Below, piece after piece: positions 34,209 to 38,066 of a stretch of DNA of 64,000 bases. Each line of letters opens with the position of its first letter. Position 1 is the first letter of the stretch. The notes under the pieces are model-generated. The model saw only the letters and a program-made list of their open reading frames with translations, did not search any database and was not told the origin of the DNA. The position numbers and the translations under genes were made by a program. The stretch is from the NCBI GenBank assembly GCA_029940375.1, contig JAPYUX010000002.1:110349-174348 (forward strand), given 5' to 3'. The stretch is from Dehalococcoidia bacterium (GTDB lineage: Bacteria; Chloroflexota; Dehalococcoidia; Lucifugimonadales; Lucifugimonadaceae).

Positions 34209-35504
34209 TTATTGAACCTTAATTATTTTGTGATTTTTTTTACCTTTAGAAAGAATAATCACTTTTCCTGCTTTTAAGTCATTTATAGTAACGATTTTCT
34301 CTTCGTCACTAATCTTAATACCATTAATAGAAATTCCACCTTGTTGTATAAGCCTTTTGGATTCCCCAATTGATTTACAAATATAATAATCAACAGTTAA
34401 TTTATTTATATCAATACCTTTTTGTAATAATTTTTTGTTTATATTCGCTGTGGTATTTGAATCTTTATATAAATCATCATAATCAGAATCTATCAATATT
34501 TCCCATTCCCCAAAATTCAATCCCTGTGTTTGTCGTTTGGCATCTTCTAGTCCTTTTTCACCGTGAACCAGTTTGGTTATTTCTTCCGCAAGATATTTTT
34601 GAGAATTTCTAGCAGAAGCATTTTTATTTGCTTCTATTTCTAACTCTGTAAATTCTGAAACACTTATATTAGTAAAAATTTTAATATAATTTAGAACATC
34701 TTTATCAGATGTGTTGAAAAAATATTGATAAAGCTTATATGGGATCGTGACATTGGAATCAATTGTGATAGCTCCTTCAATACTTTTGCCAAATTTTTCT
34801 CCGTTAGAAGTTGTTAATAGCGGGTAAGTTATACCATGAGCTTTATGCTTTTGAGATGGATTTTTTTTTCTTATTAGTTCTATTCCAGATAATATGTTAC
34901 CCCACTGATCCGAACCTCCCATTTGAAAATTACAATTATAATATTCAAAAAGATACCAAAAATCATACGCTTGGAGTAATTGATAGCTAAATTCTGTAAA
35001 TGAAATTCCATCTTCTCTAGAGATTCTATTTTGAACAGAATCTTTATTTAACATGGTATTAATATTGAAAAATTTTCCAGTTTCTCTAAGAAATTCTATT
35101 AAATTTATTTTTGATAACCATTCAGAATTATTTATGATTTGAGCAGGATTTTTTTTGTTTTCAAAATCTAAAAATAATTCTAATTGTTTTCTAATTCCTA
35201 ATAAATTTTCCTGAAGTTTTTCTTTTGAAAGTAAGTTTCTTTCGTCAGATCTGCCTGAAGGATCACCAATCATCCCGGTACCACCACCAATTATGATTAT
35301 TGGTGTATGCCCAAAGTTTTGCAATCTTTTTAAGCCTAAAATGGGTATTAAGTTTCCTATGTGTAGACTTTTCGCAGTAGGATCAAAACCATTGTAACAA
35401 GTAATTTTGTCCTTAATCAAAATTTCTTTGGCACCAGGAGTATAATCTTTTAAAGAGCCTCTCCATTCCAACTCTTCTATAATATTTCTGAATTTATTAT
35501 TCAT
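34209..35504 (-). CDS. tyrS: Tyrosyl-tRNA synthetase
   Basis: The product is 431 aa. Class I signatures are the HIGH motif in SLHIGNLIPILGL and the KMSKS equivalent in GEKFGKS. GGSDQWGNILSG binds tyrosine and ATP. The C-terminal S4 domain (KSIGESKRLIQQGGISINGIKI) binds tRNA-Tyr. It overlaps ribF by 8 nt. In this run it lies two genes downstream of a Tyr/Phe-rich leader peptide, so its transcription may respond to tRNA-Tyr charging. Confidence 0.95.
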   Translation of the reverse strand: MNNKFRNIIEELEWRGSLKDYTPGAKEILIKDKITCYNGFDPTAKSLHIGNLIPILGLKRLQNFGHTPIIIIGGGTGMIGDPSGRSDERNLLSKEKLQENLLGIRKQLELFLDFENKKNPAQIINNSEWLSKINLIEFLRETGKFFNINTMLNKDSVQNRISREDGISFTEFSYQLLQAYDFWYLFEYYNCNFQMGGSDQWGNILSGIELIRKKNPSQKHKAHGITYPLLTTSNGEKFGKSIEGAITIDSNVTIPYKLYQYFFNTSDKDVLNYIKIFTNISVSEFTELEIEANKNASARNSQKYLAEEITKLVHGEKGLEDAKRQTQGLNFGEWEILIDSDYDDLYKDSNTTANINKKLLQKGIDINKLTVDYYICKSIGESKRLIQQGGISINGIKISDEEKIVTINDLKAGKVIILSKGKKNHKIIKVQ

Positions 35505-36444
35505 ATTTTTTTGATTTCAAGATTTGAAATATGTTATTAATATCAATTTTAATTTGTTTTTTTAATTTATCTAATGATTCATATCTTACTTGATCTCTAA
35601 TTTTTTTTACTATTGATATTTCAATTGATTTATCATAGATATTTTCATTGAAATCTATAATATGAACTTCAATTTTATGTTCATAATTATTTTTGAGTGT
35701 GGGTCTGTCACCTATAGATAAAGCACCAAAAAAGCTTTTATTTTCAATGTTAACGTAGCAAGCATAGACTCCATCCCCAGGAGCTAAAATTTCCGAGGAG
35801 ATTTCCAAATTCGCTGTTGGAAATCCTAATTCACTACCAATTCGATCACCTTTAATTACTTTGCCTTTAACTTTGTAGAAATCCCCTAGGTATGTATTAG
35901 CCTTCTCAATTTTCCCACTTTTAATCAATGAATTAATCGATGAAGTAGATATGATTTGTTCATTTAGTTTGTTCATTTTTACAAAAGTTAATCCAAGTTT
36001 TAAATTTTCACAAAGTTTAAACAAATCATCCCCAGATAGTTGATCGTAGCCAAGGTTTGTTTTTTCACTAACAATTAAATGAGTCATATTAGCTAACTTT
36101 TTTAAAAAATAAAGGAATTCTTTAGCAGATAAATTTTTTATTTCATTGTTAAAATCCAAAGGATAAATGTAATCTATTCCTTGTTGAGATATTTTGTTTA
36201 TTCTGAAATGCAAATCTGAAAGATACGATTGTTTTTCATTTTTATTAATGAATTCCCTTGGCCTTTTTTTGAAAACTATAGTTAAGGACTTTAAATTATT
36301 TTTGTTAGCTATGAAATTTGTTTTTTCTAATAATAGTTTATGCCCTTTATGAACTCCATCAAATGTTCCTATACATAAAGCAGTTTTGTTTTGATTTATA
36401 ATTTTTGAAAGATTATTTAACTGATCAACAGTTTTTTTTATCAT
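35497..36444 (-). CDS. ribF: Bifunctional riboflavin kinase / FAD synthetase
   Basis: The product is 315 aa. The N-terminal adenylyltransferase domain has CIGTFDGVHKGHKLLLE (GxFDGxHxGH). The C-terminal kinase domain has KGDRIGSELGFPTANLEI and GDGVYACYV. It makes FMN and then FAD from riboflavin and ATP. The start is 14 nt after the DAHP synthase stop, and the end overlaps the tyrS start by 8 nt. Confidence 0.94.
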   Translation of the reverse strand: MIKKTVDQLNNLSKIINQNKTALCIGTFDGVHKGHKLLLEKTNFIANKNNLKSLTIVFKKRPREFINKNEKQSYLSDLHFRINKISQQGIDYIYPLDFNNEIKNLSAKEFLYFLKKLANMTHLIVSEKTNLGYDQLSGDDLFKLCENLKLGLTFVKMNKLNEQIISTSSINSLIKSGKIEKANTYLGDFYKVKGKVIKGDRIGSELGFPTANLEISSEILAPGDGVYACYVNIENKSFFGALSIGDRPTLKNNYEHKIEVHIIDFNENIYDKSIEISIVKKIRDQVRYESLDKLKKQIKIDINNIFQILKSKKYE

Positions 36445-36458
36445 GCTATTACTATAGT

Positions 36459-37505
36459 TTAGGTGCCTAGTTGTTCATTTGCTTGCAAAATAATTTCTTC
36501 TGTTTTTTCCCATCCAACACATTTATCAGTTATAGATACACCATATTCTAAACTAGTTATATCTGAATTTAAACTTTGGCTCCCCGGATTTAAATTACTT
36601 TCTAACATTATGCCTATAATATTTTTATTACCAGATGTTATTTGATTTATAACGTTATCAAAAACAATAGGCTGTCGATTATGATCTTTATTAGAATTCC
36701 CATGTGAACAATCGACTACGATATTAGGCTTAAGATTATTTTTAACTAATAATTGCTGAGCATTTTTTACAGATTCTTCATCATAATTTGCTCCTGAAGC
36801 TCCTCCTCGTAAAATTATATGATTTGCCTTATTTCCATTAGTTACAACCACTGAAGTTTTTCCTTCATGATCTATACCTAAAAAAGCATGCTGCCCTTCA
36901 CAGGCAATCATACCATCTATGGCTAATTGAACTGAACCACCTGTTCCATTTTTAAAACCTATTGGCATTGATAATCCACTCGCCATTTGTCTGTGGGTTT
37001 GACTTTCTGCAGTCCTAGCTCCTATGGCTCCCCAAGAAACTAGATCTCCAATATATTGAGGAGTAAAAGGATCAAGAAATTCGGTTGCAGTCGGAAGGCC
37101 GATATCAGTGATTTCTGACAAAACTTGTCTAGCCATATTAATTCCTTTAGGAATATTAAATGTGCCATTTAAGTCTGGATCATTAATTAGACCTTTCCAA
37201 CCTATCGTTGTTCTAGGTTTTTCGAAATAAACTCTCATTACGATGAAAATATTTTCTTTTACATTTTCTGAAAGTTTTTTTAATTTTTTTGCATATTCTA
37301 TTCCAGCTTTTGTATCATGAATTGAACAAGGCCCAACTAAAAGTAATAGCCTTTCGTCTTCACCTGAAATAATTTTTTGGATACTTATCCTTGAATTTTC
37401 TACCAGCTTTGCTTGACTCTCTTTTAGAGGAATTTTTGCAAAATATGATTCTGGTGATGGAAGGGTTGTTAGTTCTTTAATATTTAGATTTTGTATTTTG
37501 TTCAA
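36459..37505 (-). CDS. aroG: DAHP synthase, class I (AroG/AroF type)
   Basis: The product is 348 aa. It condenses phosphoenolpyruvate with erythrose 4-phosphate, the first step of aromatic amino-acid synthesis. LLLVGPCSIHDTKAGIEYA, KPRTTIGWKGLINDP, GARTAESQTHRQMASGLSMPIGFKNGT (motif list, not one run to copy) and VDCSHGNSNKDH are class I alpha features, and the N-terminus aligns with E. coli AroG. The start is TTG at 37505, preceded by AAGGAG. A Tyr/Phe leader-peptide attenuator lies directly upstream. Confidence 0.95.
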   Translation of the reverse strand: MNKIQNLNIKELTTLPSPESYFAKIPLKESQAKLVENSRISIQKIISGEDERLLLLVGPCSIHDTKAGIEYAKKLKKLSENVKENIFIVMRVYFEKPRTTIGWKGLINDPDLNGTFNIPKGINMARQVLSEITDIGLPTATEFLDPFTPQYIGDLVSWGAIGARTAESQTHRQMASGLSMPIGFKNGTGGSVQLAIDGMIACEGQHAFLGIDHEGKTSVVVTNGNKANHIILRGGASGANYDEESVKNAQQLLVKNNLKPNIVVDCSHGNSNKDHNRQPIVFDNVINQITSGNKNIIGIMLESNLNPGSQSLNSDITSLEYGVSITDKCVGWEKTEEIILQANEQLGT

Positions 37506-37538
37506 TTTTTTCTCCTTAAAAATTTAATGTTAATTAAA

Positions 37539-37566
37539 TAAAAAAAAGACCCTTATCAGAGTCTTT
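37539..37566 (-). terminator. Attenuator terminator hairpin before aroG
   Basis: Read on the minus strand, AAAGACTC (37566-37559) pairs with GGGTCTTT (37552-37545) through a 6-nt TGATAA loop. The stem has eight pairs, one of them T-G. The 3' arm runs into a stretch of eight T residues. This is a standard intrinsic terminator placed between the leader peptide and the aroG ribosome-binding site. The same AAAGACTC is the 3' arm of the competing antiterminator. Confidence 0.85.
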
Positions 37567-37605
37567 AGAGTTATTTAAATCTACGAATGAATACTACAAA
37601 GACTC
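37559..37605 (-). promoter_or_regulatory. Antiterminator of the aroG attenuator
   Basis: GAGTCTTT (37605-37598) pairs perfectly over eight bases with AAAGACTC (37566-37559). The 5' arm is made by codons 16-18 of the leader peptide, just before its stop codon. A ribosome stalled on the Tyr/Phe codons would leave this arm free. A ribosome reaching the stop codon would cover it and let the terminator form. Confidence 0.8.
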
Positions 37606-37650
37606 CAATCTTTCAAAAAAATAATAATATGTATAAAATTCAGTTTTCAT
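37594..37650 (-). CDS. Tyr/Phe-rich leader peptide of the aroG attenuator
   Basis: This 18-codon ORF encodes MKTEFYTYYYFFERLESL and ends in TAG. Seven of its residues are Phe or Tyr, six of them clustered at codons 8-12 with F5 and Y6 just before. The cluster lies 18 nt ahead of the antiterminator arm, a distance suited to ribosome stalling. No strong Shine-Dalgarno sequence precedes the ATG. A TAGAAC element 17 nt upstream could be a -10 box giving a short leader. Confidence 0.8.
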   Translation of the reverse strand: MKTEFYTYYYFFERLESL

Positions 37651-37706
37651 CTTTTTTTGCTTATTTAGTTCTAGTGTAACTTAATTTTACAGAAATTTCC
37701 TACAAT

Positions 37707-38066
37707 TTATAGATCGGGTCTTAATGAAGTAGCTCCGTTAAGATATACGTGTTTTATTTGATTTTGATTTTTTATAGTATTCCAATGAATTAAAATTCTA
37801 ATGCATTTTTGTAATCCGTCAGGGTTATCTATTTCATGCATGTTTAATAATGGAACTTCATTCATGGATAATTTTTCTCTTGCGGCTACTGCTGGAAATT
37901 CTGCATTTAAATCTTTGGTTGTAGTAAAAAATATAGAAGCAATGTCTTGAATTTCGACATTATTCAAAGTTGTCATTTCCCTTAATAAACTGAATGTAGA
38001 ATCTATGATATTTTCTTTAGTATTATTTGATACAGTAGTTGCTCCTCTGATTCCTCTTACCGACAT
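37707..38066 (-). CDS. aroH: Chorismate mutase, AroH type
   Basis: The product is 119 aa, matching monofunctional AroH enzymes of the Bacillus trimeric fold. It converts chorismate to prephenate, the branch point to Phe and Tyr. The N-terminal SVRGIRGATTV carries the active-site arginine. FTTTKDLNAEFPAVAARE and the later VYLNGATSLRPDL are family blocks. It lies 25 nt after trpA, and the attenuator for aroG begins 57 nt after its stop. Confidence 0.94.
   Translation of the reverse strand: MSVRGIRGATTVSNNTKENIIDSTFSLLREMTTLNNVEIQDIASIFFTTTKDLNAEFPAVAAREKLSMNEVPLLNMHEIDNPDGLQKCIRILIHWNTIKNQNQIKHVYLNGATSLRPDL

Follow-up and report, generated by a model that had tools for sequence, protein, structure and literature searches.

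Between the gene of an aroH-type chorismate mutase and aroG, the gene of a class I DAHP synthase of the aroFGH type, a 1.47-Mb Dehalococcoidia assembly, whose nearest named relatives are Chloroflexi/Dehalococcoidia MAGs, holds a gap of about 200 bases, and the question raised by this locus is what that gap does for the expression of aroG. We examined it within a stretch of 64,000 nucleotides, referred to here as the window, for which a first-pass annotation had proposed that a leader-peptide attenuator responds to aromatic supply. Our analysis makes it very probable that the gap encodes a ribosome-mediated transcription attenuator controlling aroG, ribF, and tyrS, a reading drawn from the sequence on account of its anatomy, its uniqueness in the window, its conservation within the genus, the pairing found across the order, and control codons that match the pathway.

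Anatomy of the aroG leader

The aroH–aroG gap accommodates the leader ORF and all of the segments (Table 1), and the first-pass annotation had described them correctly throughout, from the positions of the arms and the 31-nt spacing between segments 2 and 3 to the T tract. The 18-codon ORF, confirmed on the minus strand, has the seven Phe/Tyr codons claimed for it, three for Phe and four for Tyr, and its control codons are F5, Y6, Y8, Y9, Y10, F11, and F12. As had also been proposed, the shared arm AAAGACTC is able to form 8 bp with GAGTCTTT or with GGGTCTTT, and the two pairings are mutually exclusive; the 2:3 stem grows to 13 bp when the terminator loop joins in. The stop codon starts one nucleotide past segment 2, in agreement with the earlier statement that it adjoins the antiterminator arm. 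Predicted energies in the window's genome are −13.3 kcal/mol for 2:3 and −10.1 kcal/mol for 3:4, and the terminator hairpin with its T8 tract has −9.6 kcal/mol.

Since the T tract stops 34 nt before the start codon of aroG, the terminator lies within the gene's own 5' leader, and aroG expression therefore requires passing it; the space downstream of the terminator is too small for an ordinary promoter ahead of aroG. On the other side of the ORF, a TACACT element that precedes the leader ATG by 23 nt is a candidate −10 element of the promoter. The leader ATG in the window's genome has no clear Shine-Dalgarno sequence, and genus relatives show weak AGG-like ones.

Gene names were assigned from NCBIfam models. 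aroG scores 481.8 bits against TIGR00034 (cut-off 173.2) and is the sole match in the genome. Gene order, trpA-aroH-aroG-ribF-tyrS-polA, is the same throughout our genus sample, which comprised nine genomes, that of the window and eight others, all carrying aroG. Presumably, aroG, ribF, and tyrS form one co-transcribed operon under the attenuator; the place of tyrS in it is a point that the first-pass annotation did not contain.

Table 1. Features of the aroG locus, in window coordinates
Feature	Coordinates	Strand	Basis or conservation
aroH-type chorismate mutase gene, upstream gene	37707..38066	minus	TIGR01796
Candidate −10 element TACACT, inside the box TTAAGTTA[CG]ACTAG	37673..37678	minus	kept in 9/9 genus genomes, with variants in some
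Leader peptide ORF, 18 codons, MKTEFYTYYYFFERLESL (ATG at 37650, TAG at 37596-37594)	37594..37650	minus	read from sequence
Segment 2, antiterminator 5' arm GAGTCTTT, leader codons 16-18	37598..37605	minus	unchanged in 9/9 genus genomes
Segment 3, shared arm AAAGACTC	37559..37566	minus	pairs with segment 2 or segment 4
Segment 4, terminator 3' arm GGGTCTTT	37545..37552	minus	in relatives, changes in step with segment 3
T8 tract of the intrinsic terminator, overlapping the end of segment 4	37540..37547	minus	sequence; T8-T9 in 9/9 genus genomes
Shine-Dalgarno sequence of aroG, AAGGAG	37512..37517	minus	sequence
aroG, class I DAHP synthase (aroFGH type), TTG start at 37505, first regulated gene	36459..37505	minus	TIGR00034
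ribF, downstream of aroG	35497..36444	minus	NCBIfam ribF models
tyrS, tyrosyl-tRNA synthetase, overlapping the end of ribF	34209..35504	minus	TIGR00234

How readily such a combination arises in this DNA was assessed by a joint scan, which looked for an ORF no longer than 30 codons in which five or more of ten codons are Phe/Tyr, for a hairpin with a T-run within 75 nt, and for a partner near the stop codon with which the 5' arm of the hairpin could pair instead over 8 bp. On the two strands of the 64-kb window, the aroG leader alone has all of these, and when the entire window was dinucleotide-shuffled 200 times, the same scan returned no sites. A terminator scan of the 700-nt region gave the aroG-leader terminator as its only match, with 0.1 expected.

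Conservation within the genus

Comparison of the aroH–aroG gap among relatives, as proposed by the first-pass annotation, showed that the Tyr/Phe codons are kept: a leader of 13 to 18 codons with TYYY and flanking aromatic residues, as well as a terminator with eight or nine T, is present in nine of nine genus genomes. Segment 3 reads AAAGGCTC in seven of these (AAAGGTTC in one of the seven), and segment 4 reads GAGCCTTT or GGGCCTTT in the same seven; the window's genome and its closest relative have AAAGACTC as segment 3 and GGGTCTTT or GAGTCTTT as segment 4. Read from the sequences, the A-to-G change in segment 3 is met by a U-to-C change in segment 4, a co-variation of A:U to G:C in the 3:4 helix. 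Segment 2 is invariant across the genus and accommodates the change in segment 3 as U:A or U:G, with 72 of 72 cells of the 2:3 helix pairing and one side alone varying. This formal pair count covered the 2:3 helix only, on arms cut out and joined; counting on a MAFFT alignment of the whole leader was dropped because arms 3 and 4 are offset there by one column between two subgroups.

Predicted energies across the genus range from −11 to −16 kcal/mol for 2:3 and from −9 to −12.5 kcal/mol for 3:4. A feature absent from the first-pass annotation is a 1:2 pause hairpin whose 5' arm contains the Tyr codons (for instance ACACAUAUUA pairing with UAGUGUGU), which is clear in seven of the nine genomes (−8.9 to −13.8 kcal/mol) and is weak and folded differently in the window's genome and in G005, the genome closest to it. 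In the genus, 14–18 nt separate the third Tyr codon from the start of segment 2, which puts segment 2 at approximately the leading edge of a ribosome that has this codon in its A site. In static folding of the RNA that a stalled ribosome would set free, 2:3 beats 3:4 in some cases and not in all, and the model therefore requires co-transcriptional folding. In three genus genomes, aroH and the leader are set apart by about 200 additional bases in which another reading frame ends, and despite this upstream insertion these genomes retain the leader together with the TTAAGTTA[CG]ACTAG box or a variant of it.

Distribution across the order and beyond

The regions upstream of aroG were read in about 75 genomes of the family and at 40 loci that lie outside the family but within the order. 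An aromatic leader ORF with a strong, mostly GC-rich terminator occurs at 17 loci from 11 other families (f5, f6, f7, f14, f23, f30, f33, f34, f37, f39, and f41), and three named Chloroflexi/Dehalococcoidia MAG loci (L039, L046, and L047) likewise carry leader and terminator; examples of leaders beyond the genus are MNTLNGFFYYFWFTDARHREAAS, MNSVRTYYWNYYFLGLAGGGLLREQ, and MIQNYFTYYYYFKKRRANCRV. At 29 of 29 loci (nine from the genus, 17 from the 11 other families, and the three MAGs), the 5' arm of the terminator can pair with sequence at the leader stop codon or shortly before it. Against dinucleotide shuffles, this order-wide pairing has a combined p of about 1e-15, a value that ignores relatedness and the selection of leaders by eye, and single loci range from 0.005 to 0.29. 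The control codons in 30 six-codon cores comprise 96 Tyr, 42 Phe, and 6 Trp, and the enrichment of Phe and Tyr over shuffles is not significant in some single genomes. The recurrence in 11 other families, along with conservation in all nine genus genomes, supports the earlier proposal that aroG may be attenuated in response to aromatic supply.

Relatives that keep aroG and lack the leader, which the first-pass annotation had held to speak against such an element, were never found in the genus but were met in its streamlined sister genera g4, g5, and g6 of the same family, where no leader is visible upstream of aroG; the element is therefore not universal. Similarly, in families such as f9, f16, f17, f18, and f32, aroG lies close behind aroH or has no visible leader.

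Several loci at the edge of this survey deserve mention in their own right. Among Chloroflexota outside the order, two of 15 checked loci have a similar ORF and terminator before aroG, L218 (G244) with the leader MAIRGFFYFWFSYFAGGKGSLPPRGFATASA and L216 (G272) with MHTAFYYFSGGTTELLIAQ. In family f11, L167 and L168 share a conserved frame before aroG, WFSxxxxAPLYWRxxGR, which is a possible Trp/Tyr/Phe leader and at which no terminator was seen. Ahead of its DAHP synthase gene, in the stretch from about −300 to −95 nt, a MAG of the Polyangiaceae (Myxococcota; L097) has an ORF that ends in RRFFWFGYWRAETAATGSSL followed by the stop codon.

Leaders of the GC-rich relatives

Genera g2, g3, and g7–g12 of the same family, which are GC-rich, and family f19 possess a longer aromatic ORF at the equivalent place and have no T-tract terminator before aroG. 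A motif like LFTxGRxYSS frequently precedes the stop codon in these longer leaders, and the spacer contains about twice as much C as G in most of them, with G-free runs of 15–45 nt. RNAalifold on the leaders of the GC-rich genus g9 gave no convincing structure (−6.0). It is possible that these leaders act by Rho-dependent or translational attenuation.

At individual loci (L012, L023, L029, L010, L136, L176, and others), the leader ORFs span about 25–55 codons, lie between about 330 and 100 nt ahead of aroG, and end, directly before the stop codon, in motifs like GLFTYGRSYRS, HFTRGHLYRS, and PLFTSGRPYTYSG. In genus g7 (L014, L020, L029, L112, and L119), a second short ORF stands between about 150 and 60 nt ahead of aroG and ends in RRFFYPGR or similar before its stop codon; it lies between the first aromatic leader and aroG, an arrangement of tandem leader peptides.

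A model of attenuation and its alternatives

In the mechanism that we propose, RNA polymerase would transcribe the leader while a ribosome trails through the 18-codon ORF. When charged tRNA-Tyr and tRNA-Phe are ample, the ribosome would arrive at the stop codon and cover segment 2; 3:4 would then pair, and transcription would end at T8, 34 nt before the start of aroG. When charged tRNA-Tyr (chiefly) or tRNA-Phe is short, the ribosome would stall in FYTYYYFF and leave segment 2 free, upon which 2:3 would form, the terminator would be blocked, and DAHP synthase and tyrosyl-tRNA synthetase would be made. In this mechanism we infer that the ORF is translated, that the ribosome stalls, that the three genes are transcribed together, and which way the response goes.

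Could the hairpin instead be an ordinary terminator of trpA-aroH next to an ORF that arose by chance? Its location between aroH and aroG would fit, and in an AT-rich window TTT and TAT are frequent codons. However, the joint features are missing from every one of the 200 shuffles, the leader and the 2:3 pairing recur throughout the genus sample, and the layout is repeated in the 11 other families, several of which are GC-rich, so that TTT and TAT are unfavoured there; moreover, the short distance from T tract to start codon means that aroG is transcribed through the terminator. Taken together, these observations leave this explanation highly improbable. We regard as the least probable of the alternatives a riboswitch or T-box that would set the terminator and antiterminator without translation of the ORF. 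The ilvB gene of the window's genome does use a T-box, but at the aroG site there is no Rfam match at gathering score, the leader is short and has no conserved aptamer-sized fold, and what is conserved from family to family is codons for aromatic residues and a pairing close to where the ORF ends.

A further possibility is that translation of the leader acts via ribosome coupling, Rho, or translation initiation and not via the intrinsic terminator. The GC-rich sister genera, in which the leader ORF is kept without a T-tract terminator and ahead of a C-rich, G-poor spacer, would suit such a mechanism. For the genus of the window, we nevertheless judge it very unlikely, as an intrinsic terminator with co-varying arms is found in each of the nine genomes, and as far as translation initiation is concerned, the Shine-Dalgarno sequence of aroG lies outside both hairpins. 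Returning to ribosome-mediated attenuation at the intrinsic terminator, we tentatively suggest a history, possible but rather doubtful, in which a Tyr-dominant attenuator of DAHP synthase would be ancestral to the order; many families would have retained the intrinsic-terminator switch and several streamlined lineages would have lost it, and in GC-rich genera it would have become a longer leader with a conserved C-terminal motif and no intrinsic terminator, perhaps dependent on Rho.

Comparison with known systems

In the trp attenuator of E. coli, segments pair as 1:2, 2:3, and 3:4, and the stop codon adjoins segment 2. The aroG leader shares the 2:3 and 3:4 pairings and the position of the stop, and differs in that the E. 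coli element has Trp control codons and a strong 1:2 pause hairpin, whereas 1:2 is weak in the window's genome though clear in seven of the nine genus genomes. The pheA (pheL) and pheST attenuators of E. coli follow the same segment logic with aromatic control codons, and in pheST the target is an aminoacyl-tRNA synthetase operon, as with tyrS here; the genes and the phylum are different, however, and Tyr rather than Phe dominates in our leaders. The Rfam model Phe_leader (RF01859) scores 16.6 bits at the site, below its gathering score of 55, and Rfam searches over the window, at 18 further loci, and at the site with a permissive threshold yielded no fitting family.

T-box leaders likewise sense charged tRNA through transcription termination, but do so without a leader peptide. 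The T-box model RF00230 has no match in the aroG leader, though it detects the leader of an ilvB-type gene in the same genome (109.6 bits, L209:1228-1449); with the attenuator at aroG, both strategies would thus coexist in one small genome. No further leader peptides were seen upstream of matches to PF00425 (trpE/pabB type), PF00682 (leuA type), and PF02776 (ilvB type) in this genome, where the other operons were examined one by one. One gene of this genome occurs together with its upstream sequence on two contigs, C6 and C14 (L207 and L208), perhaps as a redundant stretch of the assembly. A comparative study of Actinobacteria describes attenuators for phenylalanine and T-boxes for tyrosine (PMC1262725), and a survey from 2010 added Firmicutes to the Proteobacteria and Actinobacteria, the two groups from which leader-peptide systems had been known until then (PMC2965389).

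The closest described case is aroR of Corynebacterium glutamicum, in which, as in our locus, a short aromatic leader peptide precedes a DAHP synthase gene. An attenuator was predicted for aroF of this species in PMC4046766, and according to the account of Neshat et al. (2014) contained in PMC11802643, aroR carries Phe-Tyr-Phe, ribosome stalling raises transcription of aroF, and the response is to Phe and not to Tyr. That system thus belongs to an actinobacterium and is Phe-responsive, whereas here, in Chloroflexota, Tyr codons dominate (with a YYY run) and tyrS stands in the operon; the likeness is one of layout and gene, the leaders being short and diverse. The first-pass annotation had expected a Tyr/Phe leader to be little described in Chloroflexota, and in the open-access literature on attenuation in Chloroflexi or SAR202 and on Tyr leader peptides we found no report of such an element.

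A Tyr-dominant leader attenuator before DAHP synthase in twelve families of one Chloroflexota order would provide a testable rule for the regulation of aromatic synthesis in uncultivated, often streamlined bacteria, and the approximately 30 loci offer a basis for an RNA family model. Set beside the systems above, what is in all likelihood a real attenuator works by a classical mechanism; its novelty lies in the phylum, in a specificity dominated by Tyr, in a gene cluster that includes tyrS, and in a distribution across the order.
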